A DNA stretch of 64,000 bases from Candidatus Poribacteria bacterium (GTDB lineage: Bacteria > Poribacteria > WGA-4E > WGA-3G): NCBI GenBank assembly GCA_003635315.1, contig PYJD01000031.1, positions 62,001 through 126,000 on the forward strand, written 5' to 3'. How positions within the stretch are numbered: the first letter of the stretch is position 1; every line of letters begins with the position of its first letter. A program made the translations under genes and the position numbers. The notes under the pieces are model-generated. The model was given only the letters and a program-made list of their open reading frames with translations, was not told the origin of the DNA and did no database searches. Below, in pieces: positions 3,487 to 61,334 of this stretch.

Positions 3487-4089
3487 TTACTGCAGAAAAT
3501 GAAAAACAAGCGCGGTATTGATAATTGCCAATAAAGTGCCTACCACTGTCTGAAGGAAGGTGTGTCTTTCTCTGTAGATTCTTGCCCATGCAATTAAAGG
3601 AATGAGAAGAAAAAACCAGATGAAACTGGTATTTACAAGGAATACCAGCACCATAATACAACCGGTTGTTACACTGGTATGAAAACTGATTTTCCAGAGT
3701 GGGGTAATTGCAGAGAATACTATGCTATTTGCTATAAATGCAATACAAGCAAGAATGATCTTTTGCGCCGCACCAATCTTATATAGGATTACTGTTCCAA
3801 GAATCATACTTAAAACAATAAAACATAAAGGGATTATCCTCTCTTCTTTGGCATGAAGATGTAAATTCCCCACCTTCGAAAACTTTACTAATAGTACGAT
3901 GCCAAGTATTGGGAGAATTGTAACAAATAGAGTGACAATCCCTAACCAAAGTAACACATCCTGACTTGTCATCGCATGCTTCTGAATAACGATGACAGCC
4001 GTTACAATTGGTACAATAAACGGACTAAAAGCGACAGACGTGCCCAACGCTACCCATTCGGGAAAAGCCGAGAATGTCTTCTGATACAT
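3487..4089 (-). CDS. PAP2-like integral membrane protein
   Basis: 200-residue, very hydrophobic protein with about six predicted membrane segments. The C-terminal half resembles the PAP2 phosphatase superfamily. It has a KISFHTSVTTG segment where PAP2 enzymes carry the S-x-H motif, and ARIYRERHTFLQTVVGTLL, matching the third PAP2 motif (R-x5-H-x3-D, with Q where Asp is usual). The first PAP2 motif (K-x6-RP) is not obvious, so catalysis is doubtful. The start ATG overlaps the stop of the upstream double peroxiredoxin (TAATG), so the two are probably translated together. What a selenoprotein and a lipid-phosphatase-like membrane protein share is not apparent. Confidence 0.6.
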   Translation of the reverse strand: MYQKTFSAFPEWVALGTSVAFSPFIVPIVTAVIVIQKHAMTSQDVLLWLGIVTLFVTILPILGIVLLVKFSKVGNLHLHAKEERIIPLCFIVLSMILGTVILYKIGAAQKIILACIAFIANSIVFSAITPLWKISFHTSVTTGCIMVLVFLVNTSFIWFFLLIPLIAWARIYRERHTFLQTVVGTLLAIINTALVFHFLQ

Positions 4090-5096
4090 TAGTTCGTTTG
4101 TTGTGATTTGATGAAGTTTACTAAATCAGATCCTTGTGTTTCTGGTTTTACATCTTTGTCAATTTGGATTATCTTACCAGATTTATCAATTACAATAGTG
4201 ATTCGATTGAACCGTCCTTCTAACTTATCAGTTGCTCCAAACAGTAATGCAAGATTTCTACCAGTGTCTAACAATAATGGAAAGTTCAATTTATTCTCTT
4301 CAGAGAATTTTTGATGGGATTCAGCATCATTAGGAGTGATTCCAAAAGCTTGAATATCTTGCTGATCAAGATGACTCGACTCATCACGGAGCGAGCAGAC
4401 TTGAACCGTTCAGCTACGACCAAAATCACGGGGATAGAAGACTAATGCGACATGTTTCTTATCCTTGAGTTTGCTGAGTTGGTATTGCTTTTCTTCACTG
4501 TCAAAGGCAATAAACTCTGGTGCCATCTCTCCTACTTCAATTTTTGGCAGGACATTTCCCAGCATTTTGACTACATCTTCACCATGTGTTCTCACTTTGA
4601 CGTCTTTATCAATTGCGCGAATATATCCCGCTTTATCAATGATAAATGTGACTCTATTTGAAGCATTGAATCTTTCCATTATCCCACTATACTGTTTGCT
4701 AACATCAAACTCAGTATCGGCAAGTAATGAAAAACCGAAATTTTCATCATCTCTGAACTTCTTGTGTGATTCAACGGTATCAACACTCACGCCAAATACA
4801 ACAGTTCCAGTTTTTTCTATTTCGCTCAATTTATCCCGGAGCGATTGTAGTTCAGCAGTTCAACCACCGGTAAAATCTTTTGGATAAAAGGCAAGTACGA
4901 CGTTTTTCTTACCTAAGAATTCTGTGAGATTACGTTCTGTTCCTGTTTCATCTTTTAGTGTGAAATTAGGTGCAACCATCCCAACTTCAAGCTCTTTATT
5001 ATTTTCCACTTCATTCTCCGCTAAAGCTAATGGAATCAAAAGTATGGTAATTAAAACGAGGATACAAACATAACGGGTAGACATAAAATGATACAT
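4089..5096 (-). CDS. Secreted two-domain peroxiredoxin, putative double selenoprotein (two in-frame UGA)
   Basis: Read through two TGA codons, this is one 335-residue protein; conventional translation breaks it into three fragments in the same frame. Residues 1-26 are a signal peptide (ending LIPLALA). Domain 1 (about 36-175) has FYPKDFTGG-UGA-TAEL with UGA at residue 79. Domain 2 (about 185-335) has FYPRDFGRS-UGA-TVQVCSLRD with UGA at residue 229. Both UGAs sit exactly where AhpC/BCP-type peroxiredoxins have the peroxidatic Cys of FYP-x4-C-T. Domain 2 keeps a Cys five residues later (the BCP resolving-Cys position); domain 1 has Gln there. Known: Sec-containing peroxiredoxins exist. Inference: a periplasmic hydroperoxide reductase with two Sec sites. 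An AGAGG ribosome-binding site lies 9 bp before the ATG. The TAA stop overlaps the next gene's ATG. Confidence 0.88.
4374..4396 (-). promoter_or_regulatory. SECIS-like hairpin after UGA-229
   Basis: Beginning 17 nt from the U of the second UGA, GCUCG pairs with CGAGU. The helix can continue CUC/GAG past a single bulged U, leaving a 6-nt apical loop CGUGAU that contains GU. A bulged U and an apical GU are hallmarks of the E. coli SECIS, although here the bulge is on the 3' side. The 5' arm (UCGCUCCG) matches the first hairpin. A competing hairpin GAUGA/UCAUC overlaps it. Confidence 0.6.
4817..4850 (-). promoter_or_regulatory. SECIS-like hairpin after UGA-79
   Basis: Starting 13 nt from the U of the first UGA (counting it as 1), the mRNA can fold with CUA/UAG as a lower helix, a small CAA/AA internal loop, a perfect 6-bp helix UCGCUC/GAGCGA and an 11-nt loop CGGGAUAAAUU containing GG. 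Position and size fit bacterial SECIS elements, which lie within the coding sequence just downstream of the UGA. The fold was read by eye; no energy was computed. Confidence 0.65.
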
Positions 5097-14151: not shown

Positions 14152-14880
14152 TTAATGTGATAAGGCATCTAAACTAAAAATCTTGCGACGCGCAGGTGTG
14201 TTACAGTGTTCTGCAATGGATGCGAATTGTGTTGGTCCCACCCGTCCCGGTGTACGTTTCTCATAGATAAGTATAATAGACTTCCGTGGTGTGTCTGAAG
14301 AATTATCCATTGAGGTATGCCATCCACATGAATTAAACATGATAGCCGTACCAGCCTTACCGGGAAAACTTTTATGTCCCGGCATACTCTCCTGTAATAA
14401 GGGACGTTTATAGGGACCAGACCCGTGTCTATGACTTCCCGGGACAAATCCAAACTCCCCACCACCTTTCGGGACATCATTAACATATATCTGCACCTTA
14501 ATATGTATAGGATTATCCTTACCTACATCAGGATGCCAACCCGTATAACTTACTGGCCACGGAGCAACTGTTCTCACTTGAGGTCCGAGTAGGATTACAT
14601 CGTCATCAGTGAATTCCATCAACGCTCCGTAATAACTCGGATGATCTATGATGTCTATAAATATAGTGTCTTTCTCAAGTGGATTTGGAATATCATAGAA
14701 AGTGGCAGCAGCATCTGCTGTTTCAACCCTTTCTAACCATTCCTCCTTACATTCATCTGCCCAAAAATCAAAGGCAGTTTGGAGACGTTTTAATTGTTCA
14801 CCTTGGATGGCATTTTCAAACACAAGATATCCGTCACGTTCCCACTGTTCTTTTTCTTCAGGTGTCGGTCTATTCATCAT
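14152..14880 (-). CDS. Phytanoyl-CoA dioxygenase (PhyH) family protein
   Basis: 242-residue Fe(II)/2-oxoglutarate oxygenase. The facial triad is H116 and D118 in TGWHPDVGK and H188 in CGWHTSMDN. R199 (TPRKSIILIYE) is the candidate 2-oxoglutarate Arg. The GGGEFGFVPGSHRHG strand is typical of the family. Its ATG overlaps the TGA of the upstream PLP-enzyme gene by 4 bases, so the two products are made together. This suggests oxygenation of an amino-acid-like or hydroxy-amino-acid substrate. Exact substrate unknown. Confidence 0.88.
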   Translation of the reverse strand: MMNRPTPEEKEQWERDGYLVFENAIQGEQLKRLQTAFDFWADECKEEWLERVETADAAATFYDIPNPLEKDTIFIDIIDHPSYYGALMEFTDDDVILLGPQVRTVAPWPVSYTGWHPDVGKDNPIHIKVQIYVNDVPKGGGEFGFVPGSHRHGSGPYKRPLLQESMPGHKSFPGKAGTAIMFNSCGWHTSMDNSSDTPRKSIILIYEKRTPGRVGPTQFASIAEHCNTPARRKIFSLDALSH

Positions 14881-15920
14881 TTCACCTTTCCTCTACCGGC
14901 AATTTGCCAGACTGTTTCTACTTTATCGCCTCGTATACCAACCAATTCATCGTGTAGATTACTTGTCATTCCTTGATGTAATGGAATGACTGACAGTTTA
15001 TCACCAACTTGGAATTTATTTGTGCAATTACTTACATCAACATGTCCGTGTTCAACAGACATACCATATATTTTTGCATCTGGAAATTCAATTATATGAC
15101 CATAAGGACTGGGTGGATAACTCGCAAAGGTTTTCTGTCCTCCGTCAATAATAATTCGTTCCGGTGTAGGTGTGCTAACAACAGTTGTTAATACACGAAG
15201 CACACACTCTTCTGGAGATAACATATCAGAATTACCGATTCGAGACAACCCTTCATAAACATAAGATCCGCTCCGTGTTTCTGTACATCCAATTTCTTTC
15301 GATGCTGCTTCTGAACCTGTTCCACCCCCGCTAATTATGTTTACCGATAACCCATCAATTTTAAAGAGATCTACTGTTTCTGAGATATACTGTTTTACTC
15401 TTACATTACTGGGATAAGTCATGATCCCTTGTAAATCTACTCCCGACAATTTATCAATTTTCTGTGCAAGTTGTAGTGCATGTATTGGGGATTGAACACC
15501 ACATCTGCCACTACCAGTATCTAATTCAATTATCAGAGGAATTACACACCCATCTTGCGTAGCTTGCAGAGATATACCATTGGCAGTTGTTTCTGAATCA
15601 ACAGCGACAATAATTGTTGCACGTTTTGACAAGGCAGTTAATCGCTTCACCTTTGGTGTTCCGACAATGTTATAGGGTATCAGGATATTGTCTATACCTG
15701 CATCCACCATGGATTCTGCTTCACCTAATTTCTGACAAGTAATCCCTTGTGAACCTGCAGCGAGTTGCAATTTTGAAATTTCTGGCACTTTATGGGTTTT
15801 GGTATGAACACGGAGCGGGATATCAAGATTTTGACAGAGCGATGCCATGTCTTGAATATTCTTTTCAAGCACATCTAAATCAGCAATAAGGGTGGGAGTG
15901 TCTAAATCATGGATGTGCAT
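14877..15920 (-). CDS. D-threonine aldolase / D-serine dehydratase-like PLP enzyme
   Basis: 347 residues, alanine-racemase-like fold III PLP protein of the D-threonine aldolase (DTA/DSD1) family. The N-terminal LDTPTLIADLDVLEKNI and RVHTKTHK give the PLP Lys (K41). IELDTGSGRCGV and the phosphate-binding SGGGTG are also present. In DTA/DSD1 enzymes a divalent metal is bound by His and a Cys or Asp two residues later (H-x-C/D); here the matching site reads PLHQGMTSNL, so the second ligand is Gly. Activity may therefore differ. It is translationally coupled to the downstream PhyH oxygenase (ATGA overlap). Confidence 0.85.
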   Translation of the reverse strand: MHIHDLDTPTLIADLDVLEKNIQDMASLCQNLDIPLRVHTKTHKVPEISKLQLAAGSQGITCQKLGEAESMVDAGIDNILIPYNIVGTPKVKRLTALSKRATIIVAVDSETTANGISLQATQDGCVIPLIIELDTGSGRCGVQSPIHALQLAQKIDKLSGVDLQGIMTYPSNVRVKQYISETVDLFKIDGLSVNIISGGGTGSEAASKEIGCTETRSGSYVYEGLSRIGNSDMLSPEECVLRVLTTVVSTPTPERIIIDGGQKTFASYPPSPYGHIIEFPDAKIYGMSVEHGHVDVSNCTNKFQVGDKLSVIPLHQGMTSNLHDELVGIRGDKVETVWQIAGRGKVK

Positions 15921-20045: not shown

Positions 20046-23000
20046 TTACAAGGAAGGTAATCCGTTCACTATTTCAACTGTTCGCAAACTCACACCAATC
20101 ACCCGACCGATTAAATCTACTATATAACGTTCGTCATCGGCACGATTTGGGTCATTCACAATACCGCTCCGTTTGTCGGTCTTAATACGATACTGATCAA
20201 CAACCCACTCCAACGCTGACCGCGTCCCAAGGCGATATTCATATACCTCCTTTGGAATGCCAGAAATAGTCAGAAAATCGTTATAGACCAACGATGTCTT
20301 GTCTTTCGACAACTTCATCTTCTCTACCTTCAGATTGATGGGGACATTCGGGGTTTCGATATGTTGTAGCTGCGGATGGATGGGATACTCTTCATAGTTG
20401 ATGTGTATGTCAGCGAGTTCCACACCAGCATGTGCGAATCCCCAGAAATCAGGGGCATACGGTATATGGGGTAGATCGCGTTTTAGGTTTGCCTGATATT
20501 TTTCACGATATTCGGGGTGATGTAGAAGTCCGTAGGTATAATGAAAGATGTCCCATTTGTTGATGTTGTTGTCGTTGTAATGTTCTCGGTATGCTGCAAG
20601 TGCCCAATCTGTGATGTTCTCTTTGCGATTCGAACCGTCTTCGTCATAAGTGTAGAAAGGGAAGCATTGTGTTGGTGAACCAAAACCTGCTGTTACCACA
20701 AGATTCGGAATACAATCACTCATCAAACAAGTAAAAGGTTTTTCAGGTGTAACGTTGACACAAATGACTCTATTTGCTTTTTCTGACTTTGGTAATGGAA
20801 AAATGTAGGGAAACACACCAGGTCTTTCAGTTAGAATATTGTCAAAATATAGATTTGTCTTAGTATAAGGACGATAAAGCAATTGTCTGATTTTTGATTT
20901 TGTCAACTCCACCCGATGTCCAGCTGTTAGATGTCGTTTTAAGGTAGCACTCCACTTGATCCTAGTTTCGTCGTAATTCACAAAATCATCAATCTTTAGT
21001 CCTTTTTCAGGATTTCGTTGCCATCTATCAATTTCAGTATTATAACATTGACTTAAACGTTCTACATTGTAAGTCAAGACAGTTCGGTTGAAATTGCAAA
21101 TCCAAGCATCACGACCTGTTAGAACTCCATTACTAAAAGTCTTGAAAATTACATTTAGTACAGAATTTTTCTCTGCTTTTACCTTCTTTGTTCCCATTGG
21201 AATAAAGGTCTCAAATTCTGGAAGCAGCCCTTTAGTTAACCATCTATACCTGTTATCAGGTATTATATCTTCCCATTGTATGTTCTGATAATATCCTTTT
21301 ATATTTAGATATTCGTATTTCTGCTCTTTTCTCCAAGATTCATCAACTCTTGAATAGAAAATATGTGGGAATTCTGTTTTTCTATTCTTCTTTACAAATA
21401 AGTTAATACTAACCCCTACTTGTATTCCAAAGACATTGTGTGTTGATCCAGATAACTTCGGATTTTTTCTGACGTTACCACCCAAATCCAAAATAAAAAT
21501 GGAATTGAATTCATCTGCAAGATGTTTCCGCATTCCATCAAAAGCTTTTCCATCTATAAAGCCATTGTTTGTAACAAAAGCAACCACTCCTTCTTTGTCT
21601 ATCCTATCTATAGCCCACCGAATTGCTTTTACATACGGATCATATAATCCTGTCTTTAGAGTAGTTTCTGAATCCAAAACAAATGAATCAGAAATTCGTC
21701 TATTCATAGTCTTATAATCACGATTTTTGTTGTTATCACTTTCATTCACCTGTCTTAAATTATACGGTGGATTCCCAATCACAACGAACATATCGGTATT
21801 TTTCTGCCTTGCCACGCGATCCGTATTTTCTTCAGAAAACAATTCTATCTGTTCTTTCTCAAGCATCTCAAAGGTATCCGCAAGTGCAATACCTTCAAAA
21901 GGGAGGTATTGTTGTGTACGTTGGTAATACTCCTGTTCAATATTCAAACTGGCTATGTAGTATGGTAGGAGCATCACTTCGTTACAGTGGAGTTCGTTCT
22001 GATATTTGTGCTTCAAGTTCATCCCATCAATATCCCGCATCAATCGCACAATGAAATTACCAGTACCAACAAACGGATCAATGATATGCACGCCTTCACT
22101 CGATAGTGAACGATCGAATTCTGTATTGAGAATATGTTCAACACTATTCACCATAAAATCCACGATCGGTTGCGGTGTATAGACAATACCGTGTGTATCC
22201 GCCACATCTGCCGAAAAACCTTGAAAAAATTGTTCATAGAATGTGTTCAATAGATGCTGTTTCTGTGAAAAGTCTCGGCAGCCTTTCGCTGCATTCTCAA
22301 TGGCACGGTAGAACGGATCAAGCGGACGGAGAAATACATCTCGACTGATGGCTTGATGCATCAACGCACCCGTAACTTTTTCAATCTCTTGTGCGATGAT
22401 GTTCCGTGTTGTGAAATCGGATCGGTCAAACACGGTTCGGAAGATACGTTCTGTGAGAATATGCTGTATGAGCATCTCCTCAACTGCTTTCTGAGACAGG
22501 TTCGGATTGATGGCTGATTTGCATGTCTCATAAAACCCAGTAAATGCTGTGCGGAATGTTGAATCGTTCTCTAACTGCGTTTCTATAAGATCCATCATCT
22601 CCGTTGCGAGATCCGGAACGTGTGTTCTGAAGTCGGCGACGGCGCGTTCCCAATCTTCGTGGACAGGTGTGGTGTATCCAAAAAGTTGCTGCAGTGTGTT
22701 GACAAGATTGTTAGGATCGGTCAGATCCGTATCCAGTGTTCTCTGTCCGTTCTGAAAGAGGATACCACGTTCGGGTGTTTGGAACAGGATATTGTCTAAT
22801 GGATATCCTGCCTGTTGTTTCTCTTGAACGGCTTGAGGTAGGTCGTCGTGTATATCTTTGGCTTCCCAGTAAGCAAGTGGCATACCGAGTTTAGTTACAG
22901 CACCGTCAATGATAATACGGTCACCCGAATCCGTTTGCATCTGGTATTGCTGAGAGAAGGTGGCATCAATCTGTTTAGCACAGATATTTAGGAGTGTACC

Positions 23001-23114
23001 GAAAGGTGCGCTGACAGCACCTTCATGGGTTATCGCCTGTTGGTTGAATTGTTGTAATGTGGCGTAATAGTCTTTAATGGGTTTATGAGTCGGTTTAAGG
23101 TTCAACAGTGGCAT
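20046..23114 (-). CDS. Type ISP/IIG-like restriction-modification enzyme (nuclease + N6-adenine methyltransferase)
   Basis: 1022 residues in one polypeptide. An N-terminal PD-(D/E)XK-type nuclease core is suggested by D70 (IIIDGAV) and E84-A-K86 (AYWEAKD). A helical linker follows. The gamma-type adenine methyltransferase has motif I DPFVGTGNF at 347-355 and motif IV NPPY at 449-452. A large target-recognition region and a C-terminal segment (ISGIPKEVYEYRLGTRSALE...) typical of type ISP enzymes complete it. Unlike LlaGI/LlaBIII there is no helicase domain between nuclease and methyltransferase, so it should act more like a type IIG enzyme. No separate specificity or methylase gene is adjacent. 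Flanking gaps are repeat-poor on the 5' side. Confidence 0.9.
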   Translation of the reverse strand: MPLLNLKPTHKPIKDYYATLQQFNQQAITHEGAVSAPFGTLLNICAKQIDATFSQQYQMQTDSGDRIIIDGAVTKLGMPLAYWEAKDIHDDLPQAVQEKQQAGYPLDNILFQTPERGILFQNGQRTLDTDLTDPNNLVNTLQQLFGYTTPVHEDWERAVADFRTHVPDLATEMMDLIETQLENDSTFRTAFTGFYETCKSAINPNLSQKAVEEMLIQHILTERIFRTVFDRSDFTTRNIIAQEIEKVTGALMHQAISRDVFLRPLDPFYRAIENAAKGCRDFSQKQHLLNTFYEQFFQGFSADVADTHGIVYTPQPIVDFMVNSVEHILNTEFDRSLSSEGVHIIDPFVGTGNFIVRLMRDIDGMNLKHKYQNELHCNEVMLLPYYIASLNIEQEYYQRTQQYLPFEGIALADTFEMLEKEQIELFSEENTDRVARQKNTDMFVVIGNPPYNLRQVNESDNNKNRDYKTMNRRISDSFVLDSETTLKTGLYDPYVKAIRWAIDRIDKEGVVAFVTNNGFIDGKAFDGMRKHLADEFNSIFILDLGGNVRKNPKLSGSTHNVFGIQVGVSINLFVKKNRKTEFPHIFYSRVDESWRKEQKYEYLNIKGYYQNIQWEDIIPDNRYRWLTKGLLPEFETFIPMGTKKVKAEKNSVLNVIFKTFSNGVLTGRDAWICNFNRTVLTYNVERLSQCYNTEIDRWQRNPEKGLKIDDFVNYDETRIKWSATLKRHLTAGHRVELTKSKIRQLLYRPYTKTNLYFDNILTERPGVFPYIFPLPKSEKANRVICVNVTPEKPFTCLMSDCIPNLVVTAGFGSPTQCFPFYTYDEDGSNRKENITDWALAAYREHYNDNNINKWDIFHYTYGLLHHPEYREKYQANLKRDLPHIPYAPDFWGFAHAGVELADIHINYEEYPIHPQLQHIETPNVPINLKVEKMKLSKDKTSLVYNDFLTISGIPKEVYEYRLGTRSALEWVVDQYRIKTDKRSGIVNDPNRADDERYIVDLIGRVIGVSLRTVEIVNGLPSL

Positions 23115-33280: not shown

Positions 33281-33491
33281 GACAAACCCCTTTATGTAGT
33301 ATTGTAATTATTCCCATAGACTTGCTAACAGAATACCTAATCTTTTCTATTATGATGGTTCTTAGGTTTGTTGTCAACAATAGTTACATCAATCATCAAA
33401 CCTACACATCATATTCACTCAATGTAAACCAGAAACTTTCTTTTCCGTTACACTACTATCAAAAAACAGTCATTAATTGGAGCACACACTT

Positions 33492-36400
33492 TTGCAGCCA
33501 AAGTACACACTTTGTATTATACTATTCCTTCTCATCGGAATTCTCGTTACTGCCTATCCCGCCCACACAGCAAATAAAGAAGAAAATAACGAACCCACAC
33601 AACAGGAGACAACATCCTCTGAAGCTCCTAACAACAAAGAGAATCCATTTGATCCTCCAATTAAAAAAGATGAATGGAAACAAGAAGATACCGATACCGA
33701 TAAAACTGATGATGAAGAAACATCTGATGTTGATTCAGTTATTTCTCCACGTCGACAAATCTTAATACCCTATTTTGACACATTAAGAAGATGGAAGTAT
33801 TCACCAAATTTCGGTGATTTATCCAAACTATACGACTGGAAACCTCGCCAAGTAAAAGATACGAAAGGTATAGATCTGCCAATGGATTCTAACCTCACAA
33901 TCACAGGTTTTCAATCCGTAACTATTGAGGCAAATAAAACACACTATTTTGGTGAAGGAGATATTAACAGGTATGGTGGATATGGCTATGGTAGTTATGG
34001 TAGTGGATACGGTTCCGGTCTTGATCTGGGTCTATCATCTTCATACGGCTATGAGGATTTCGGATATAGTGGCGGTGGATTCGGTGGTGGATATGACAGT
34101 TTTGGTTCAAGTTATGGAGGTGGGTACGGAAGTGGATACAGTAGTTTTGGTAGAGGTGGTGTACCAAGAGCAAGCGGTATCAACATTCGGCAACAACAGA
34201 AAATTGGATTGCATGGGCGTGTCGGTGAACGGACACATATTGCTGTAGACTATAACGCAGGAGATGCATTTGGGGGTGGATACGGTGGCTACGGCGGTGG
34301 ATACGGTAGTTATGGTGGTGGATATGGTCTTGGAGGAGCCAAAGAACAAAAAATAAAAATCTGGTATGAAGGGAAACCAAATGAATTCATACAGACAATT
34401 TCATTTGGTGATATCACGCTTAGTCTGCCAAATACGCGATTTTTAAATATTAACAGAAACCTGTTCGGTCTTGAAGGGGTCTTTGAGTATAAGAATACTC
34501 GATTGACTGCCTTTGGTTCCAGAAGTAAAGGTGTACGTGAGGTACGAACCTTCCGAGGACAATCCCGTAGAGCTGGTTTTGGATACGGACCCCGCGGAAT
34601 CCAGATTGCTGATGGCAACTACGTTCAGAACAGATATTATTTAGTTCATAAGGGTGAGGATGGACTTTTACATCAGGCATACCTCCCGATTAAATCAGGG
34701 AGTGTCGAGATTTATATTGATGATAACGTGGTTGGCAATAACCAAGGTGGAAAAAGAACAAGTCAAGGATACTTCAATCCTCAGTTTCCAGGGCAAGATT
34801 ATAACATAGATTATGAAACCGGTGAAATCGAATTCCTTACTTCAATTGCAGCTAATTATACTGTAGTCGTTGCATACGAATACATAGGGGATGGTGGAGG
34901 AAGTGTAGGAAATCCAGGCAATGTCTTTGCAGATGAGAATGGTGACGGTTCTATTGATGAAGAAGGTGAAGAGATCGGATATGTGAAACTTAAAGAGAAA
35001 GGGTTTCGCGGAACAACGGCTGATAATGTGTATTATCTTGGAAATCGAAACATTAACCCGAGAGATTTTCAATTAACGATCATACGGCAAGGTGAAAGTG
35101 AGACCTTTCAAACTGAAAATGGACTTGTACCCTACATTGAAATCTTTGGATTAGATCAGAATAGAGATGGGATCGTCGATCCACAGTTTATTGACTATGA
35201 TAGAGGGATACTCCGATTTCCAAACTTACACTCCTTTCAAATTAATGATCCCACCAATCCATACTTCAAATATCGGGATTCCATAAACAATAACGCGATT
35301 TACCAAGAATCACTTAGAAACACAGACCAAATCTACTCTATTGTCGCTGACTATTCATATCAATCGGAGACCTACTATGTTGGACCATTTGTTATACCAG
35401 ATAGTGAAACCGTTCGTAGAAATGGTCGATTATTAACCCGCAACACCGATTACCAGATGATTTATGAGACGGGATCTATCCGTTTCTTCACGGAATTGGA
35501 TGAATTTGACGAAATCGTGGTCGAATTTGAGAAAACACCTTTCGGTGGTGGAGCACAACAGGTTGTTACTGGTTTGTGGTTTGATTATACACATAAACCT
35601 AAACCCAAATCACCGAAGGAGCAGAATCTTGAAGATCGGTTCAATCGCTTAGGTGGAATACAAAGTAGACAGAACGGTTTCGATGATAACAATCTCATAG
35701 GAGATACATTTTCAAACAATTTTCCAAATACAGGTTCACGCAGAAATACTGGTTTTGGCAGATCAGGTCTTGGAAGTGGTAGGTTCGGTAGTGGAATTGA
35801 TGGGGGTTTTGGTAGTGGTGGATATAGCAGTTTTGGCAGTTACGGTGGTCGTTCGCGAATAGGACCAAGTTATTACGGTGGTTATGGAACAGGTATGAAC
35901 TACTTCAATCCTGTCTATCAAAAAGGATTCAATATATCTACAGGATATATACTCACTACTGGACAGAAACCAGCGGAAATCCCAAATGTTAATGAAGTGC
36001 CAAACAGACTACAAGCCTTTAATATCAATACAAGCTTCGGTAGAGAATTCAATTTAGCCTGGTTGATTAATCCATTACCTTTTGTTCAAGTAAACAATTT
36101 TCCATTATCCATAGACTTTAGTGGGGAATCTGCATACTCCCATAATAATCCTAACAGTATCGGGGTAGCTCTCATTGACAGTATGGAAGGCGTTAAGCAA
36201 ACTACCACGATTCCAACATTAAAATATAATTGGAAACCCAGTAGTATACCTTTTGTTCCGGAAACACCTCCATCTGGCGTACAAACACACGATTACCATG
36301 TTATCCCAACACTTGAGAATAGAACACTATTCAAGGTGGTGTTAAAAGATAGAGAAGAAGCAGAAGCCGTTGGTAACTATATGCGAAACCGTGATGTTCC

Positions 36401-39400
36401 CGCTTCTTCTATACAACCACTCTCTCTATCTACTGAAGAAAGATTGATTATGGAAATAGGCTATGATTTTACTGATGTAATTCAAGAATGGGGTGGATTT
36501 TCAAATGGTCTTTCCAATTCTGGTGTTGATTACTCTGAACGCGGTTTTGTAGAAATGTGGTTACGGGTACAGGGAGACGAAGATGTAACACTATACCTAA
36601 ATCTTGGTGCAGTCAGTGAGGATACCGATGCAGATGGCCGTCTTGATAGTGAAGATCTACCACAAGGATTAGAAGACACTAACGGAGATAGTGTGATAGA
36701 TGCACTGGATCTCGATCTTGAAAATCTTCCGGATGCGTATCGATATCGTGGTAACGGGGGTTTGGATACAGGTGAAGATGTCGGATGGACTTATGATAGT
36801 CCTTTTGAATCGGTTTCGTTTGGAGCAGACAATCAGATATTAGATAGTGAAGATCTAAACGGTGATGGAGTACTTGATAGTGTAGACGCGTATTTTCAAC
36901 TGGCTATTCCTCTAAATAAAATACCAAACGAATGGATAAAAGGTGAAAATAAAAATGGATGGACATTCCTAAGTATCCCCTTAACAGAATTTGTTCCTGA
37001 AGGATCACGTTTACCAAGTCTTGTATTTGTGCAGCATTTCCGTCTTTGGCTCATGAAGAATCGACCCGGTAGTGTTAAGGGCACATTTCAATGGGCTTCC
37101 ATTGAAATTGTAGGCAATAAATGGGAACAGGGTGTCGTCACACAAACGGCTTCAACATCTGAAGCAAGTCTTTCTGAACAACAGGTTATAGAAGACACTG
37201 TGGAGAAGTTCATTGTAGGAACAAAAGATAACTTTAGTTATGATGATTATCAGAGTGCATATTTGGAGATTGAAGATGACGAACTTTTTAAGAAACTCCA
37301 TCCATTCACTGCAACATCTCTCGGATTTCAAACACAGTATCAAAGAGAACAAACACTTAGTTTGGAGTATTTCCTATTCCCCGATTCCTACGGTATAACA
37401 TCAAGACAATTAAAAGGGTTCACACAAAGTGAAGGACAAGACTTTAGTCAACACGACACACTAAGACTGTGGTTATATGGCGATAAGAGCCACACAACCT
37501 TTATTCTGCAACTCGCACCGAATGTACGTACCGGATACCGTAGTTCTTTCTATAGTTCTGATCCATTCCTGAATCAACCCCAACAAGAAGAGGATGTTAA
37601 CATATTTGAAAACCTTAAAGATTACTATGAGTACACTATTCCCATCGATTTTGATGGTTGGAAATTGATTGAAATTAACTTGAAAGATGAAAAAGCTAAC
37701 GAATATCCAGATAGGGTGCAAAATTTGGAAACCGGGACAGGTGTAATTCAAAACCAACAAGCAACACCTATTCCAGTTGGACCGGATGGACACCCAGATG
37801 GATTCATAGTTAGAGGAACTGGAACATCAACAAGTCGCTCCCAACTATCAATAAAAAATATCGGAGGCATATTACTCGGTATACGGAACGAAACTGATAG
37901 AGAAGTAAGTGGTGAGGTATGGGTAAATGAAATACACCTTGGGGACCCACTTGTCCGTTCTGGATGGGCACGTAGGGGGAATATGTCTGTATCACTCGGG
38001 AGACTGCTAAATCTACGCGGCGGTTATGCAAGCCAGGATAAAGATTTTGAGAGTGGTGCTGGAGAAATCGGTCGACAAAGATTATCATCACGGGGTTACA
38101 GCACAACCAATAACGACTACAACCTTGATGCAGATGTTACAATCTTTAGATGGTTGCCAATCCGATATTCTATACGCGAACAAGAATCAGAGACAGAAGC
38201 TCTCCGGGGTAGTTACAGTTCTTATCAAAGCGGCAAAAGTGAAACCCATAATCGGGATATGTCGGTTCAATTTAACAGAAACCCGTTTCCAAATCTTGGT
38301 TTTGCCTATAACTTCCAAGACTTTTGGAACGAACGTCAAGGCACTCAGATTAGTCATTTGTATACCGGTTCAGTTCGTTATGATATAGGACAGAAAATTG
38401 GATTCAATGTTCAATACAGACATGAGGACATCATCGCAAAACCGGAGGAAGCAACCGATACATCCGGTTCTTCATCATCGTTTTATAGCTACGGATACGG
38501 TAGAAATCGTGATGAAAAAACTGACAGCGGATCCATAACCTTAAACATCAATCCTATCAGTGCCTTTAGTCTGAATCCAAGTTATGACGTTAGACGGACA
38601 CTTGAGAGACGTAATCCCAACCGAACCCAATCCACATTTTCTTCAATTAATTTCGCAAATAAAACGAATGTATCAGATGCTAATACTGAGGAAGAAAGTG
38701 AAGAAGTTCCTGGTTTTTCTTTAGCCCAAAGGGAACACAGACTGTCATTGACACCTCGACTGAATCGTGATCTTTTAGGATTACGACCTACTGTAACAAG
38801 TCGTGTGAGTTTCCGGGAGAACTGGTTCACGACACAAAAAGATGCATCTCTCATTGGAAACGTAAGTGTCGGTTTAAACCTACGGATTCAGAAATGGTTT
38901 TCATGGTTAATTCCCAAACCAAAAACTGAACCCCAAATGGAAGGTGTACCCCAAGCAGATGGAGTAAAACAAGAAAAGACTTCTATACAATCTAAAACTC
39001 CAACTGCAAGTTCTGTTGAACAGTTGAGGAAATCTAACATTAATGAATCACAAATTCAAACAGCAATAGAAGAACAGGGAGATTGGATTAGTAGAGACAA
39101 AGCAGATATTTCTACAGGGCAAGGAGCACCAGTTCCACAAGTCAAAGAAGGACTTTTCGGAAGAATCATCAATACATTCTCAATTAGTACAAATGCAAAC
39201 TTTTCTGCATCAGAATCCTATAGGCAACTGGAAAACGGACAAGATTTATTGGATATTTGGAATCTTGAGGATGATGCTGAAGAACGCACGAATTCACGCA
39301 AAAGCAACAGGTACAATCTAAGAACTTCAGTGGATCCATGGAGTTGGGTTTCAATCGGTACCAGCATAATTACTTCGGACTCCTTTCGAAAGAGTTATGC

Positions 39401-39980
39401 AAGTACATACCTATCTGATGCTATAACATACGAAGGTAATCTTCAACTAAAAGCACAGGAAGCTTCTCGTTTTCAACTCCGCTATAGTTATACACTACGA
39501 AACAGTTCAAATTTGGAGATTGTCCTCAGTGATAGTAAAGCACACACACCATCACTCAGTTGGATACATAAATGGGCGCCAGAAACAACAACATCCATAG
39601 GAATTCGCACAACCCTTCGAGACCAGCTTCGAAGTGGTATAAATACGAACGCTTTTATCATCACTCCGAATTTAAGTATTGATTATCGTTATCGCACGGA
39701 GGGTGGAATTCGCATTCCATTTTTCGGACGAATACCCCTTAAACATAATCTTGACCTAACCAATACATTATCATTAGCAATACGTCGTGAAAACTACGGG
39801 GCAAATAAACAAGAAAAGTCGGAAAGATATGAGACAACATTAAGGGCAGGATATAGACTTAGTAATCATCTCACGGCGAATCTTCATTTGGGTCTTAGCT
39901 ACAACCACGATAGGGTTGAAGAGGGAAGAGATTTTCTATCAATCGCCAGTGCCTTAACAGTCCGTGGTGAATTTCAGTAA
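33492..39980 (+). CDS. SprA/Sov-like outer-membrane protein (type IX secretion translocon family)
   Basis: About 2162 residues. The TTG at 33492 has GGAG 9 bp upstream and opens directly into a signal peptide (KYTLCIILFLLIGILV...); a TTG at 33477 is the alternative. Repeated 'DY..DYETG.I.FL......V.V.YEY' modules and the later beta-rich, barrel-like half ending in strands (LTVRGEFQ) match SprA/Sov proteins. In Bacteroidetes these form the 36-strand outer-membrane pore of type IX secretion, with about 2400 residues. Unusual are two Gly/Tyr/Ser-rich inserts (about residues 155-290 and 750-810) and several EF-hand-like loops (DENGDGSIDEE, DQNRDGIVD, DLNGDGVLD). The window's C-terminal-domain proteins are plausible cargo. 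Family call fairly confident; function inferred. Confidence 0.75.
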   Translation: MQPKYTLCIILFLLIGILVTAYPAHTANKEENNEPTQQETTSSEAPNNKENPFDPPIKKDEWKQEDTDTDKTDDEETSDVDSVISPRRQILIPYFDTLRRWKYSPNFGDLSKLYDWKPRQVKDTKGIDLPMDSNLTITGFQSVTIEANKTHYFGEGDINRYGGYGYGSYGSGYGSGLDLGLSSSYGYEDFGYSGGGFGGGYDSFGSSYGGGYGSGYSSFGRGGVPRASGINIRQQQKIGLHGRVGERTHIAVDYNAGDAFGGGYGGYGGGYGSYGGGYGLGGAKEQKIKIWYEGKPNEFIQTISFGDITLSLPNTRFLNINRNLFGLEGVFEYKNTRLTAFGSRSKGVREVRTFRGQSRRAGFGYGPRGIQIADGNYVQNRYYLVHKGEDGLLHQAYLPIKSGSVEIYIDDNVVGNNQGGKRTSQGYFNPQFPGQDYNIDYETGEIEFLTSIAANYTVVVAYEYIGDGGGSVGNPGNVFADENGDGSIDEEGEEIGYVKLKEKGFRGTTADNVYYLGNRNINPRDFQLTIIRQGESETFQTENGLVPYIEIFGLDQNRDGIVDPQFIDYDRGILRFPNLHSFQINDPTNPYFKYRDSINNNAIYQESLRNTDQIYSIVADYSYQSETYYVGPFVIPDSETVRRNGRLLTRNTDYQMIYETGSIRFFTELDEFDEIVVEFEKTPFGGGAQQVVTGLWFDYTHKPKPKSPKEQNLEDRFNRLGGIQSRQNGFDDNNLIGDTFSNNFPNTGSRRNTGFGRSGLGSGRFGSGIDGGFGSGGYSSFGSYGGRSRIGPSYYGGYGTGMNYFNPVYQKGFNISTGYILTTGQKPAEIPNVNEVPNRLQAFNINTSFGREFNLAWLINPLPFVQVNNFPLSIDFSGESAYSHNNPNSIGVALIDSMEGVKQTTTIPTLKYNWKPSSIPFVPETPPSGVQTHDYHVIPTLENRTLFKVVLKDREEAEAVGNYMRNRDVPASSIQPLSLSTEERLIMEIGYDFTDVIQEWGGFSNGLSNSGVDYSERGFVEMWLRVQGDEDVTLYLNLGAVSEDTDADGRLDSEDLPQGLEDTNGDSVIDALDLDLENLPDAYRYRGNGGLDTGEDVGWTYDSPFESVSFGADNQILDSEDLNGDGVLDSVDAYFQLAIPLNKIPNEWIKGENKNGWTFLSIPLTEFVPEGSRLPSLVFVQHFRLWLMKNRPGSVKGTFQWASIEIVGNKWEQGVVTQTASTSEASLSEQQVIEDTVEKFIVGTKDNFSYDDYQSAYLEIEDDELFKKLHPFTATSLGFQTQYQREQTLSLEYFLFPDSYGITSRQLKGFTQSEGQDFSQHDTLRLWLYGDKSHTTFILQLAPNVRTGYRSSFYSSDPFLNQPQQEEDVNIFENLKDYYEYTIPIDFDGWKLIEINLKDEKANEYPDRVQNLETGTGVIQNQQATPIPVGPDGHPDGFIVRGTGTSTSRSQLSIKNIGGILLGIRNETDREVSGEVWVNEIHLGDPLVRSGWARRGNMSVSLGRLLNLRGGYASQDKDFESGAGEIGRQRLSSRGYSTTNNDYNLDADVTIFRWLPIRYSIREQESETEALRGSYSSYQSGKSETHNRDMSVQFNRNPFPNLGFAYNFQDFWNERQGTQISHLYTGSVRYDIGQKIGFNVQYRHEDIIAKPEEATDTSGSSSSFYSYGYGRNRDEKTDSGSITLNINPISAFSLNPSYDVRRTLERRNPNRTQSTFSSINFANKTNVSDANTEEESEEVPGFSLAQREHRLSLTPRLNRDLLGLRPTVTSRVSFRENWFTTQKDASLIGNVSVGLNLRIQKWFSWLIPKPKTEPQMEGVPQADGVKQEKTSIQSKTPTASSVEQLRKSNINESQIQTAIEEQGDWISRDKADISTGQGAPVPQVKEGLFGRIINTFSISTNANFSASESYRQLENGQDLLDIWNLEDDAEERTNSRKSNRYNLRTSVDPWSWVSIGTSIITSDSFRKSYASTYLSDAITYEGNLQLKAQEASRFQLRYSYTLRNSSNLEIVLSDSKAHTPSLSWIHKWAPETTTSIGIRTTLRDQLRSGINTNAFIITPNLSIDYRYRTEGGIRIPFFGRIPLKHNLDLTNTLSLAIRRENYGANKQEKSERYETTLRAGYRLSNHLTANLHLGLSYNHDRVEEGRDFLSIASALTVRGEFQ

Positions 39981-43286: not shown

Positions 43287-43311
43287 AAAAAGTGCGAATT
43301 CAATGCACTTT
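43287..43311 (-). terminator. Second terminator-like hairpin directly after the aptamer
   Basis: Minus-strand AAAGTGC/GCACTTT 7-bp stem, 9-nt loop, then UUUUU (the last stem bases form part of the U run). It starts only about 8 nt past the aptamer and so is the more usual place for a riboswitch expression platform. Confidence 0.6.
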
Positions 43312-43318
43312 CATATAT

Positions 43319-43394
43319 TTCCCTACGCTGGCATGACCCAGATCAGGTTCAAAGGGTGTTTTCTCAGCTCCTATTATAATAAGAGCACCCCGTT
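43319..43394 (-). promoter_or_regulatory. TPP riboswitch (THI element)
   Basis: The minus strand carries the conserved parts in order: GGGGTGCTC, GAGCTGAGA, ACACCCTTTGAACCTGATC, TGGGTCATGCCAGCGTAGGGA. All match the thi-box consensus. It lies upstream of thiX-thiY-thiO-thiS and is followed by two terminator-like hairpins, so TPP should reduce read-through into the operon. Confidence 0.96.
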
Positions 43395-43484
43395 ATGACT
43401 ATATATTATTACTATACTATCATATCCTCAGATAAAATGCAAATTCTAAGTGTCGTATTTTACGGTTATCTTTTAATTATATCC

Positions 43485-45739: not shown

Positions 45740-48289
45740 TTACTTTTGTATTGTCATTTTGCGAGTTGTGGTGTATTGTCCTGCTGTTAGAGTGTAGAAA
45801 TATATACCACTTGCAACAGGTTCACCCACTTCATTTTTACCATCCCAATAGGCAGCGCGAGTGCGATCTTGGTAAAGTCCTGGTTGCTGATGTCCTAATG
45901 CTATGTTTCGAATCTCTATACCATCAGCTGAATAAATTTGGATGGAAACATCTGATGATTCTGATAGTTGATATGGTATCCACGTTTCAGGATTGAATGG
46001 ATTGGGGTAATTTGGTAGGAGCGTTGTCGTAGTTGGTTTTAGCTGAAGTAGAAACTGTTCCAGAAAATGAATCCCTTTCTGAGTAATCGGATCTAATAAG
46101 TTAAGCTGTTGAGCTTGTATCAACCATTGGTGTATATTTTCAGTCATAAGATTATAATTCTTACTATATTTTCCAGGGGCACCATTACCATCATTCAATA
46201 CTCCTGCAACTTTGATAAGATCAGCAATATCAACGATATTATCCCCATTTACATCTGCTGCATTTTCACCAGTCTGTCCAAAATTTGCCGCAATAAAGAC
46301 TAAATCATTAACATCCACAACACCATCGTTATTAACGTCTTCTTCTATGCGTTGAGAAGAGAAAAAAGAGGAATAATCCCAAAATAGAATTGTTCCATCA
46401 ACTCCTAATGTTGCGAGCGTATTCCCATCCGGACTAAACTCTATGTCATCAATTCCATTTGGCATACCAGTAAGAATAGATTTAAGTTCTCCATTTGATG
46501 TGTCCCAGATTCGTATTGTTCCATCGTCTATAGCTCCAGCAGAAATAATACTTTTCCCATCTGGACTGAAAGTAATATTAACATGTCTATCCGTATGTCC
46601 TGTGGTGATAATCGTTCGTTCACCAGTAAATATATCCCATATATTCACCTTTAGTGATCCACTCACAGAAGCGATCAATCTTCCATCTGGACTGAATACT
46701 ATATTTGTTCCAATGGCAGATTGTTGTGGTATATTAGTAATAAGCAGTTTTGTTGAAAAGTCCCATAATTTTATACCAGATATATTTCCTGTAGCCAAGA
46801 TTCTTCCATTTGGACTAAACGCAATCCTCTTGGTTGCATTAAATTCTGGTGGAATAGTCCACAATGGCTGATAGGATTTTGTATCCCAGAGTATGACCGG
46901 ACCTTTGTTCACAGACGCAGCAACAATGGGTTCGTATGGATGGAATGCAACATAACTCACATTATTTTGATGTCCATACAGAATTGCTTTTGTTTTACCC
47001 GTCGTCACATCCCATAACCTCACAGAATCTTCATTTGCATTCCAAATAGATTTATACCTAATAGATGTTTCAGAACCCGTAGCAATGGTTCGTCCATCTG
47101 GACTATACGATACAGATGCTAATGGATCAAATTGACCATGGCCAGTACTGATGAGTTTTCCAGTTGTAATATCCAAAAGACGAAGTGTGTTATCACGGCC
47201 AATTGATACGACAGTTTCACCATCTGGGCTAAAGTCAATTTCAGACCATAAAGCAAGGTGATTATTTATGGTCTTTCTCTTCTCAAGTGTTTGACTATCC
47301 CATAGATGAATTGTTCCATCCATACTACCACTGACCAACGTGTGTCCGTCATGACTAAATGCTACACTAATAGCGGAAGAAGTATGTGCAATGCGTGTAT
47401 TCATGTGACTCATTGTATTCATATCCCATAGACATAAAATTCCATCATCACAAACACTTGAAAGGATACTACCGTCTTGATTATAATCTATGCTATTTAC
47501 CCCAATCATGTGTCCCAATAGGGTCTGTATCAATGAACCCGTTTCTACATCCCATAGATGTATGGATGTATTCCAACGACCTTCACAACTTGCCAGTGTT
47601 TTACCATCTGGACTAAATGAAATATCCGGTACACCAAAGGAACCATGCAGACTATTTGTTAGAATCGTCTTAATTAGTGAACCATTAGTAACATCCCATA
47701 GCTTAATTGTATTACGGTTATCATAACCGCCTGTAGCGAGGGTTTTTCCATCTGGACTGAATTCAAGACAGGTCACATCATCCTCATGTCCTTCGAGGGT
47801 TGTGATAATTGATCCAGTATCCACATTCCATAGTTTCACAGATGAATCCCGGTTCCAACTACATGTAGCGAGGATTTTTCCATCTGGACTAAATTCCAGA
47901 TCAGTAATCTCATCTGCGTGAGCAGAGAGAACCGTTATGAGTTCACCTGTGTGTACATCCCATAATATGAATTCTCCTGAACTACTACTTGCCAATGTAT
48001 TCCCATCTGGACTGAATGATACACTTGTTACACTTCTTGAATGATTCGTTAAGAGCTTTTGTTCCTTACCGGAATTTGCAGAATATAGCCAAACGCCAAT
48101 TGAACTTGACACTGCTATGTGTGAATTGTCAGGCGAAAAGATGATATTTCCAGTAATCTCTCCTTTACCAAGCCGTTTTTTGGCACCATTAGGTAGTTCC
48201 CATTCTGTGTAATCTTGGGCAAATACGGCACATGAATAATAACATGTCATTAGAAGTAAGATAGCAATGGATAGTTGGCACTTTTTCAT
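45740..48289 (-). CDS. Secreted WD40-dockerin-sorting-domain protein (array member 1)
   Basis: 849 residues. Signal peptide 1-24 (ending CAVFA), then the array signature (YTEWELPNGAKKRLGKG), about 14 WD40 blades (45-640), a duplicated Ca-binding dockerin-type module at about 651-700 (DVNNDGVVDVNDL, DVNGDNIVDIADL), a ~60-residue helical linker, and a C-terminal domain (about 759-849) opening LPNYPNPFNPETWIPYQL and ending ATxKM-like TTTRKMTIQK. The last domain resembles FlgD-Ig/type IX type-A sorting domains. Last gene of the array, 9 bp after member 2. Surface display and protein binding are inferred. Confidence 0.9.
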   Translation of the reverse strand: MKKCQLSIAILLLMTCYYSCAVFAQDYTEWELPNGAKKRLGKGEITGNIIFSPDNSHIAVSSSIGVWLYSANSGKEQKLLTNHSRSVTSVSFSPDGNTLASSSSGEFILWDVHTGELITVLSAHADEITDLEFSPDGKILATCSWNRDSSVKLWNVDTGSIITTLEGHEDDVTCLEFSPDGKTLATGGYDNRNTIKLWDVTNGSLIKTILTNSLHGSFGVPDISFSPDGKTLASCEGRWNTSIHLWDVETGSLIQTLLGHMIGVNSIDYNQDGSILSSVCDDGILCLWDMNTMSHMNTRIAHTSSAISVAFSHDGHTLVSGSMDGTIHLWDSQTLEKRKTINNHLALWSEIDFSPDGETVVSIGRDNTLRLLDITTGKLISTGHGQFDPLASVSYSPDGRTIATGSETSIRYKSIWNANEDSVRLWDVTTGKTKAILYGHQNNVSYVAFHPYEPIVAASVNKGPVILWDTKSYQPLWTIPPEFNATKRIAFSPNGRILATGNISGIKLWDFSTKLLITNIPQQSAIGTNIVFSPDGRLIASVSGSLKVNIWDIFTGERTIITTGHTDRHVNITFSPDGKSIISAGAIDDGTIRIWDTSNGELKSILTGMPNGIDDIEFSPDGNTLATLGVDGTILFWDYSSFFSSQRIEEDVNNDGVVDVNDLVFIAANFGQTGENAADVNGDNIVDIADLIKVAGVLNDGNGAPGKYSKNYNLMTENIHQWLIQAQQLNLLDPITQKGIHFLEQFLLQLKPTTTTLLPNYPNPFNPETWIPYQLSESSDVSIQIYSADGIEIRNIALGHQQPGLYQDRTRAAYWDGKNEVGEPVASGIYFYTLTAGQYTTTRKMTIQK

Positions 48290-48298
48290 TTTATTCTC

Positions 48299-53325: not shown

Positions 53326-53386
53326 AATATGCCTTAAAAATAGTATATATGTAAGGTGATATTGTTCTAATAAATATTGTGTTAAG

Positions 53387-55960: not shown

Positions 55961-55997
55961 ATCATATTGAAGAATTGATAGAAAATGCTGATTCTAA

Positions 55998-56152
55998 TAC
56001 CATTTCTAATTGCCTAAGTATCATTCCGATACTTGAGTTTCTTTGTAGGAGCGACCTTCTGGTCGCGACCAAAGGTCGCTCCTACAGAAGAGAGTGTTGT
56101 ATTCGGACAACCGATTTATGAAATAATGTCCTATCATTATTTAGAAATGGTA
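55998..56152. repeat. MITE-like element with perfect terminal inverted repeats (copy 3)
   Basis: 155 bp, ends TACCATTTCTAA and TTAGAAATGGTA, exact complements, flanked by TAA on both sides (55995-55997, 56153-56155) as expected of a target-site duplication. The centre holds TAGGAGCGACC facing GGTCGCTCCTA. It fills half of the 55961-56276 gap and splits the gene array; the rest of the gap shows no gene. Confidence 0.82.
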
Positions 56153-56276
56153 TAACTATATTTAGTGTTACAACAGCAATTTTAATGCCAAATAATTGAT
56201 GTGAATTAGTTTGATTCAATGCACAGAATCGTGCATTATGAATTAGAGCGTACGATATTGTGCATTGATCCGTTGT

Positions 56277-58799: not shown

Positions 58800-58828
58800 A
58801 AGTCGTCGTATATTCAGGGGAAGATCTC

Positions 58829-61324: not shown

Positions 61325-61334
61325 CTGATGTCTC

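Follow-up and report, generated by a model that had tools for sequence, protein, structure and literature searches.

A tandem peroxiredoxin of Candidatus Poribacteria with UGA, almost certainly read as selenocysteine, at both catalytic positions

How should a gene be read whose frame is interrupted twice by UGA, each time at the position where a peroxiredoxin would carry its catalytic cysteine? The gene considered here lies in a 64-kb stretch of DNA from Candidatus Poribacteria (hereafter the window, by which we mean this whole stretch), and its features are collected in Table 1. A preliminary description had joined three short pieces into one frame through the TGA codons at 4860-4862 and 4410-4412, which is exact in the sequence, and had placed both UGAs at the catalytic Cys positions of two peroxiredoxin halves. 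The latter placement is borne out by the peroxidatic contexts, FYPKDFTGG-U-TAEL in domain 1 and FYPRDFGRS-U-TVQV in domain 2, and by the AhpC-TSA family (PF00578, Pfam), which matches the 335-residue protein in two stretches (E 8.2e-64). The two UGA residues, one per domain, are 150 residues apart. From sequence analysis, we consider it very probable that this is an intact tandem peroxiredoxin gene whose product is probably exported and whose UGAs are both translated as selenocysteine (Sec) by SelB and tRNA-Sec, each with a SECIS element of its own. That both catalytic positions are Sec appears almost certain, and a PrxQ/BCP/AhpE-like tandem peroxiredoxin is the best explanation for the protein.

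Table 1. Positions, strand and basis of the features of the tandem peroxiredoxin locus, numbered along the window
Feature	Position	Strand	Basis
Tandem two-UGA peroxiredoxin gene	4089..5096	(-)	335 residues + TAA stop; one frame (translation), Pfam
Probable signal peptide, residues 1-26 (..LIPLALA/EN)	5019..5096	(-)	By eye
Peroxiredoxin domain 1, ~residues 38-181	4554..4985	(-)	Best Pfam stretch 38-161; structure model
UGA residue 79, domain 1 peroxidatic position	4860..4862	(-)	TGA in 61/61 full tandem genes
SECIS-like hairpin 1 (cols 18-42, alignment A1)	4821..4845	(-)	89.8% of cells paired; covarying outer pair; synonymous constraint
Peroxiredoxin domain 2, ~residues 188-330	4107..4535	(-)	Redoxin stretch 188-324; structure model
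Gly226 at the expected catalytic Thr of PxxxTxxU	4419..4421	(-)	Gly in 48/48 family-f1 genes, Thr in 13/13 others
UGA residue 229, domain 2 peroxidatic position	4410..4412	(-)	TGA in 61/61 full tandem genes
Cys234, likely resolving Cys of domain 2 (U+5)	4395..4397	(-)	Cys in 61/61
SECIS-like hairpin 2 (cols 17-39, alignment A2)	4374..4396	(-)	96.7% of cells paired; two pairs changed on both sides
Next gene, ATG overlapping the tandem stop, 200-aa membrane protein, faintly PAP2-like	3487..4089	(-)	PAP2 E 0.36, below cut-off

Under the standard code each half of the gene is a broken frame, and the list of open reading frames of the window represents it only by a 139-aa piece, which is what a pseudogene or a sequencing error would look like, with two nonsense codons falling on catalytic positions by chance. 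Against this stands the conservation of the codons. We searched 97 genomes, 71 of which (G000-G070) belong to the order of the window, and found the full tandem gene in 61 of the 71, at 52-87% identity to the window's gene; every one of the 61 has TGA at both sites and Cys at neither. Pieces of the gene were found in G012 and G053 and a single domain-2-like gene in G059, and the tandem gene was not found in the remaining seven order genomes (G010, G013, G039, G047, G048, G054, and G055), one of which is 96% complete. Counting the window's gene with its tandem or domain-2-like relatives, TGA occupies site 1 in 62/63 and site 2 in 65/65, far beyond chance, as the preliminary description had argued when it held that random nonsense mutations would not strike the same codon twice. 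Dozens of separate assemblies show the same TGAs, which leaves no credible case for a sequencing error. The three gene pieces also have a median dN of 0.20-0.26 versus a median dS of 1.6-2.0 (18-33 of 60 dS values being undefined). On the conserved TGAs and on dN below dS, we reject the pseudogene or error explanation, to which we would assign a vanishingly small chance.

The homologs also answer the question, raised in the preliminary description, of whether Cys occurs at residues 79 and 229: it does so at the aligned position only in some of the more distant single-domain relatives, others of which have TGA. Among 66 homologous loci, 57 carry Poribacteria in their titles, with identities of up to 87%, and the other nine come from Planctomycetota (five), Myxococcota, Blastocatellia, Gemmatimonadales, and Oceanicaulis. 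The tandem match in G069 has an extra TAA at its N-terminal edge, upstream of query residue 13. Among the tandem and domain-2-like genes, the sole codon other than TGA is a TCA (Ser) at site 1 of L090 (G005:C108:2900-4800), a diverged second tandem copy that keeps TGA at site 2 and is thus a natural loss of one Sec. L092 (G059:C35:151500-153000) is a single-domain, domain-2-like gene with TGA; it shows no evident signal peptide, and its genome has no tandem gene. Six further loci (L171-L175 and L177) are single-domain UGA peroxiredoxins from Planctomycetota and Myxococcota, with a site nearly identical to FYPKDFTGGUT.

If the gene is intact, the UGAs might still be read without selenium, as Cys, as Trp, by a near-cognate tRNA, or through a reassignment of the codon throughout the genome. 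The Cys at the aligned position of some single-domain relatives would fit such a reading. UGA nevertheless serves as a stop nearby: of the 34 ORFs in the window with 190 aa or more, 4 terminate in TGA, among them one at 14877-15920 with Pfam domains, and general reassignment is rejected on this ground, in keeping with the earlier view that the recoding is site-specific. A rough scan of the window for UGA sites returned 10 places, of which two are those of the tandem gene and eight were judged by eye. The Sec machinery is, moreover, complete in the genome of the window (4.33 Mb, 90.2% complete), where selA, selB, selC, and selD, the search proposed at the outset, are all present. The tRNA-Sec scores 76.5 bits against a cut-off of 47 and has a UCA anticodon (read as tRNA-SeC(tca)), the remaining 14 matches of the model falling below the cut-off; selB (368.5 bits) adjoins the tRNA-Sec gene, while selA (599.1 bits) and selD (365.5 bits, with a UGA of its own in the context CAGUASKL) lie at separate places from it. 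No tRNA genes were found within the window itself, the machinery being on other contigs. Four further peroxiredoxin-like genes, at three places of the genome, likewise carry UGA at redox positions, in the contexts FYRGGWU and FYRTGGU (consecutive genes), FFATYGU, and FFRGTWU. Together with the constrained hairpins that directly follow both UGAs, described below, these findings leave decoding without selenium most improbable.

Across the tandem genomes, tRNA-Sec is above the cut-off in 55 of 61. A laxer search of the six negative ones, and of G010 and G053, gave nothing above the cut-off; SelB was found in four of the six and not found in G004 and G063 (81 and 80% complete). We tentatively attribute these gaps to incomplete assemblies. 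The two consecutive UGA genes mentioned above, at locus L103 (G000:C10:280300-284000), are Prx/SelL-like and, by eye, lipoprotein-like, with one UGA each in the contexts FYRGGW-U-PFC and FYRTGG-U-GAC.

The sequence after both UGA codons varies far less at synonymous positions than the rest of the gene. At positions where 90% or more of the 61 full tandem genes (a set without L086, cut by a run of N; L088, a domain-2 part; the paralog L090; and the single-domain L092) share the amino acid, normalized codon entropy is 0.322 at residues 80-94 (10 codons) and 0.176 at residues 230-244 (10 codons), against 0.76 elsewhere (132 codons). The contrast gives a Mann-Whitney p of 3e-11, and since the tandem MAGs are related, p values here are only guides. 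Median dS after the UGAs is likewise 0.56 and 0.37, versus 2.39 and 2.23 over the remainder of the respective domains, where undefined values (42 and 51 of 60) were left out.

Both constrained stretches can fold into hairpins, which we examined in alignments A1 and A2 of 49 and 56 distinct sequences (A1 without L086 and L090). In hairpin 2, a C-G pair is replaced by U-A in 2/56 sequences and a G-C pair by A-U in 4/56, the latter pair (columns 21-35) being broken in 14/56; the covariation score was matched by one of 500 shuffles, and the number of pair types was not above that of shuffles. The outer pair of hairpin 1 is C-G in 22 sequences, G-C in 6, U-G in 2, A-U in 1, and unpaired in 18. In the window's species it is A-A, with a loop of 11 nt and a folding energy of -7.4 kcal/mol. 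RNAalifold returned only three common pairs over all site-1 sequences, and we reject the idea that one hairpin form serves site 1 throughout the order, as the outgroups pair in another register. Measured against the bSECIS limits quoted in PMC13188914, 61/65 site-2 and 40/61 site-1 sequences lie within them (48/61 at site 1 if loops of up to 11 nt are allowed), compared with 18/124 (~15%) control positions in the same genes; for the window's species, site 2 lies within these limits and site 1 outside. Constrained stretches with hairpins are what a pair of bacterial SECIS elements would be expected to show. These SECIS-like elements had not been sought in the preliminary description and, alongside the machinery, the conserved TGAs, and their recurrence in separate assemblies, add to the support for its Sec peroxiredoxin reading. 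SelB and tRNA-Sec would then decode U79 and U229, with each SECIS hairpin loop beginning ~21 nt downstream.

Could the UGAs instead act chiefly as a selenium-dependent switch, at which most ribosomes halt at the first codon and the full-length protein is rare and little used? Two serial recoding events must lower the yield, hairpin 1 looks weak in the window's species, and recoding in E. coli is put at 30-40% in PMC4513850. Yet the sequence downstream of each UGA evolves like that of a translated protein, with dN well below dS, and catalytic residues within it are retained. We therefore hold the switch to be very unlikely, and continue with the reading of a full-length protein with two Sec residues.

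What kind of peroxiredoxin would this be? The protein scores 186.8 bits against a cut-off of 140 with the NCBIfam model NF006960 (thiol peroxidase, PrxQ/BCP-type), a score that sums over both domains, and misses the cut-off of NF040737 (PrxU, NCBIfam; 100.9 versus 270 bits). The predicted structure, built from 27 sequences (one sequence set comprised the window's gene and 26 of the 57 named Poribacteria loci), has a mean pLDDT of 89.2 and a pTM of 0.85, and it places U79 and U229 in the first turn of helices 79-88 and 227-238. The solved relatives listed first, by sequence as well as by fold, are AhpE, Bcp1, and BCP, and the longest among the 50 fold matches listed has at most 221 residues. 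The tandem protein thus resembles PrxQ/BCP and AhpE in fold, in passing the PrxQ/BCP model cut-off, and in the +5 Cys of domain 2, and differs from these single-domain Cys enzymes in its two domains and in a family-f1 domain 2 that lacks the catalytic Thr.

The two halves are not alike. The motif PxxxTxxC/U is complete in domain 1, with Thr in 61/61 and Pro in 59/61 tandem genes; in domain 2 of the window's species and of every family-f1 gene, Gly stands in place of the Thr. The mature protein has a single Cys in all 15 genes of the window's genus, and domain 1 there is without Cys. The halves therefore differ in that domain 2 carries the +5 Cys and, in f1, Gly for Thr, while domain 1 keeps the Thr and, in the window's genus, has no Cys. 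Of the motif that the preliminary description had seen in both halves, the UGA position stands and the equivalence of the halves does not. The Gly in f1 domain 2 suggests a division of labor between the domains. The +5 Cys of domain 2, present in 61/61 tandem genes, would permit a selenenylsulfide after the manner of PrxQ-type enzymes. We propose that the selenolate of U79 would reduce hydroperoxides, as would that of U229 at least where Thr is kept, and that C234 may resolve U229 as a selenenylsulfide.

With domain 1 lacking a Cys of its own in the window's genus, its reductant must be domain 2, a further subunit, or an external thiol. One possibility, within the Sec reading, is that the two domains work separately as peroxidases of equal rank, drawing on external reductants and without a relay linking them. 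The families f2-f4 would fit this, with Thr in both domains in 13/13 genes, as would the +5 Cys found also in domain 1 of 23/61 tandem genes, none of them from the window's genus. The Gly of f1 domain 2 (48/48) and the absence of Cys from domain 1 in the window's genus (15/15) speak against it, and we give it slightly less than an even chance. The other possibility is an internal relay, in which an f1 domain 2 that has lost the peroxidase Thr would be specialized for resolving rather than for peroxide attack, its Sec-Cys module resolving the selenenic acid formed in domain 1. We put this forward tentatively, and regard it as possible rather than likely; if true, the window's genus would have an exported peroxidase with three chalcogens (U79, U229, and C234).

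The protein is probably exported, judging from its N-terminus and from the hydrophobic N-termini seen by eye in the 21 of 61 tandem relatives listed. The preliminary description had found an exported Sec protein of interest in itself; as such it is not new, formate dehydrogenase-N and the periplasmic NiFeSe hydrogenase being exported Sec proteins already. Electrons might reach the enzyme from the cytoplasm via a DsbD-type membrane protein, and a DsbD_TM protein is encoded in the genome of the window. Among the neighboring genes examined, no redox partner was found. The faintly PAP2-like gene adjoins the tandem gene in 43 of the 57 named Poribacteria loci, a set that includes loci truncated at a contig end. 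Elsewhere in the window lie a TPP riboswitch (43302-43402, minus strand, 67.2 bits), which is the only Rfam match; seven successive ORFs of 831-857 aa (45740-63863, minus strand), of which the three scanned are WD40 repeat proteins; a 1022-aa protein resembling Type ISP restriction-modification enzymes (20046-23114); and a 2167-aa ORF (33477-39980) whose sole match, SprA_N, is sub-threshold.

How did two Sec sites come to lie in one chain? In a tree of 59 domains, built from 22 of the 65 loci L001 and L029-L092 together with 16 single-domain rows (without L101, L176, L179, and other single-domain matches), the 21 domain-1 rows lie on one side of a branch (support 99/98) and the 22 domain-2 rows do likewise (100/99). 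The two sets together are separated from the 16 single-domain rows with support of 97/79, slightly under the level that the program treats as firm. The tree points to a single duplication that preceded the divergence of families f1-f4 and after which both halves retained Sec; as it is rooted at the midpoint and includes some long outgroup rows, the direction of descent is inferred.

A review of selenoproteins (PMC13188914) counts 119 families and subfamilies, and in its Table 1 the peroxiredoxin row gives the motif TxxU with one Sec, citing the Eubacterium acidaminophilum enzyme through its reference 83. Such a single-domain Sec-peroxiredoxin shares with the tandem protein the PF00578 fold, the peroxidatic Sec, and, for domain 1, the PxxxTxxU motif; it has one domain and one Sec where the tandem has two of each, two SECIS-like elements, and a probable signal peptide. 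The same table lists a peroxiredoxin-like thiol:disulfide oxidoreductase with UxxU, which also has more than one Sec per protein and a thioredoxin-like fold, but whose two Sec residues lie in one motif, whereas those of the tandem are spread over two domains. It further lists several double selenoproteins of other kinds, which have more than one Sec in common with the tandem and differ from it in fold or domain pair. A tandem peroxiredoxin with Sec in both halves is absent from that table. Peroxiredoxins fused to other domains are described in PMC2398784, and PMC5649159 reports that most sponge symbiont bins have SelA together with SelB, both of which most related references lack. In the open-access literature we found no description of a tandem double-Sec peroxiredoxin, nothing joining Poribacteria and peroxiredoxin, and nothing naming "two peroxiredoxin domains", which agrees with the earlier impression that a secreted tandem fusion with two Sec sites is not well described. 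Sec-peroxiredoxins as such are known; what surprises is that both Sec residues are kept over the order, with two linked SECIS-like elements and asymmetric sites.

Gene callers that terminate at UGA would split this gene into pieces. As a protein, it joins a short list of multi-Sec bacterial proteins, and its mRNA offers a natural pair of SECIS elements in which recoding yield and processivity would be measurable. Sec and Cys are commonly exchanged in bacterial selenoproteins, and here the two Sec codons have been retained in every full tandem gene found despite the two recoding events that each full-length chain requires. This suggests that Poribacteria use selenium for peroxide defense outside the cytoplasm.
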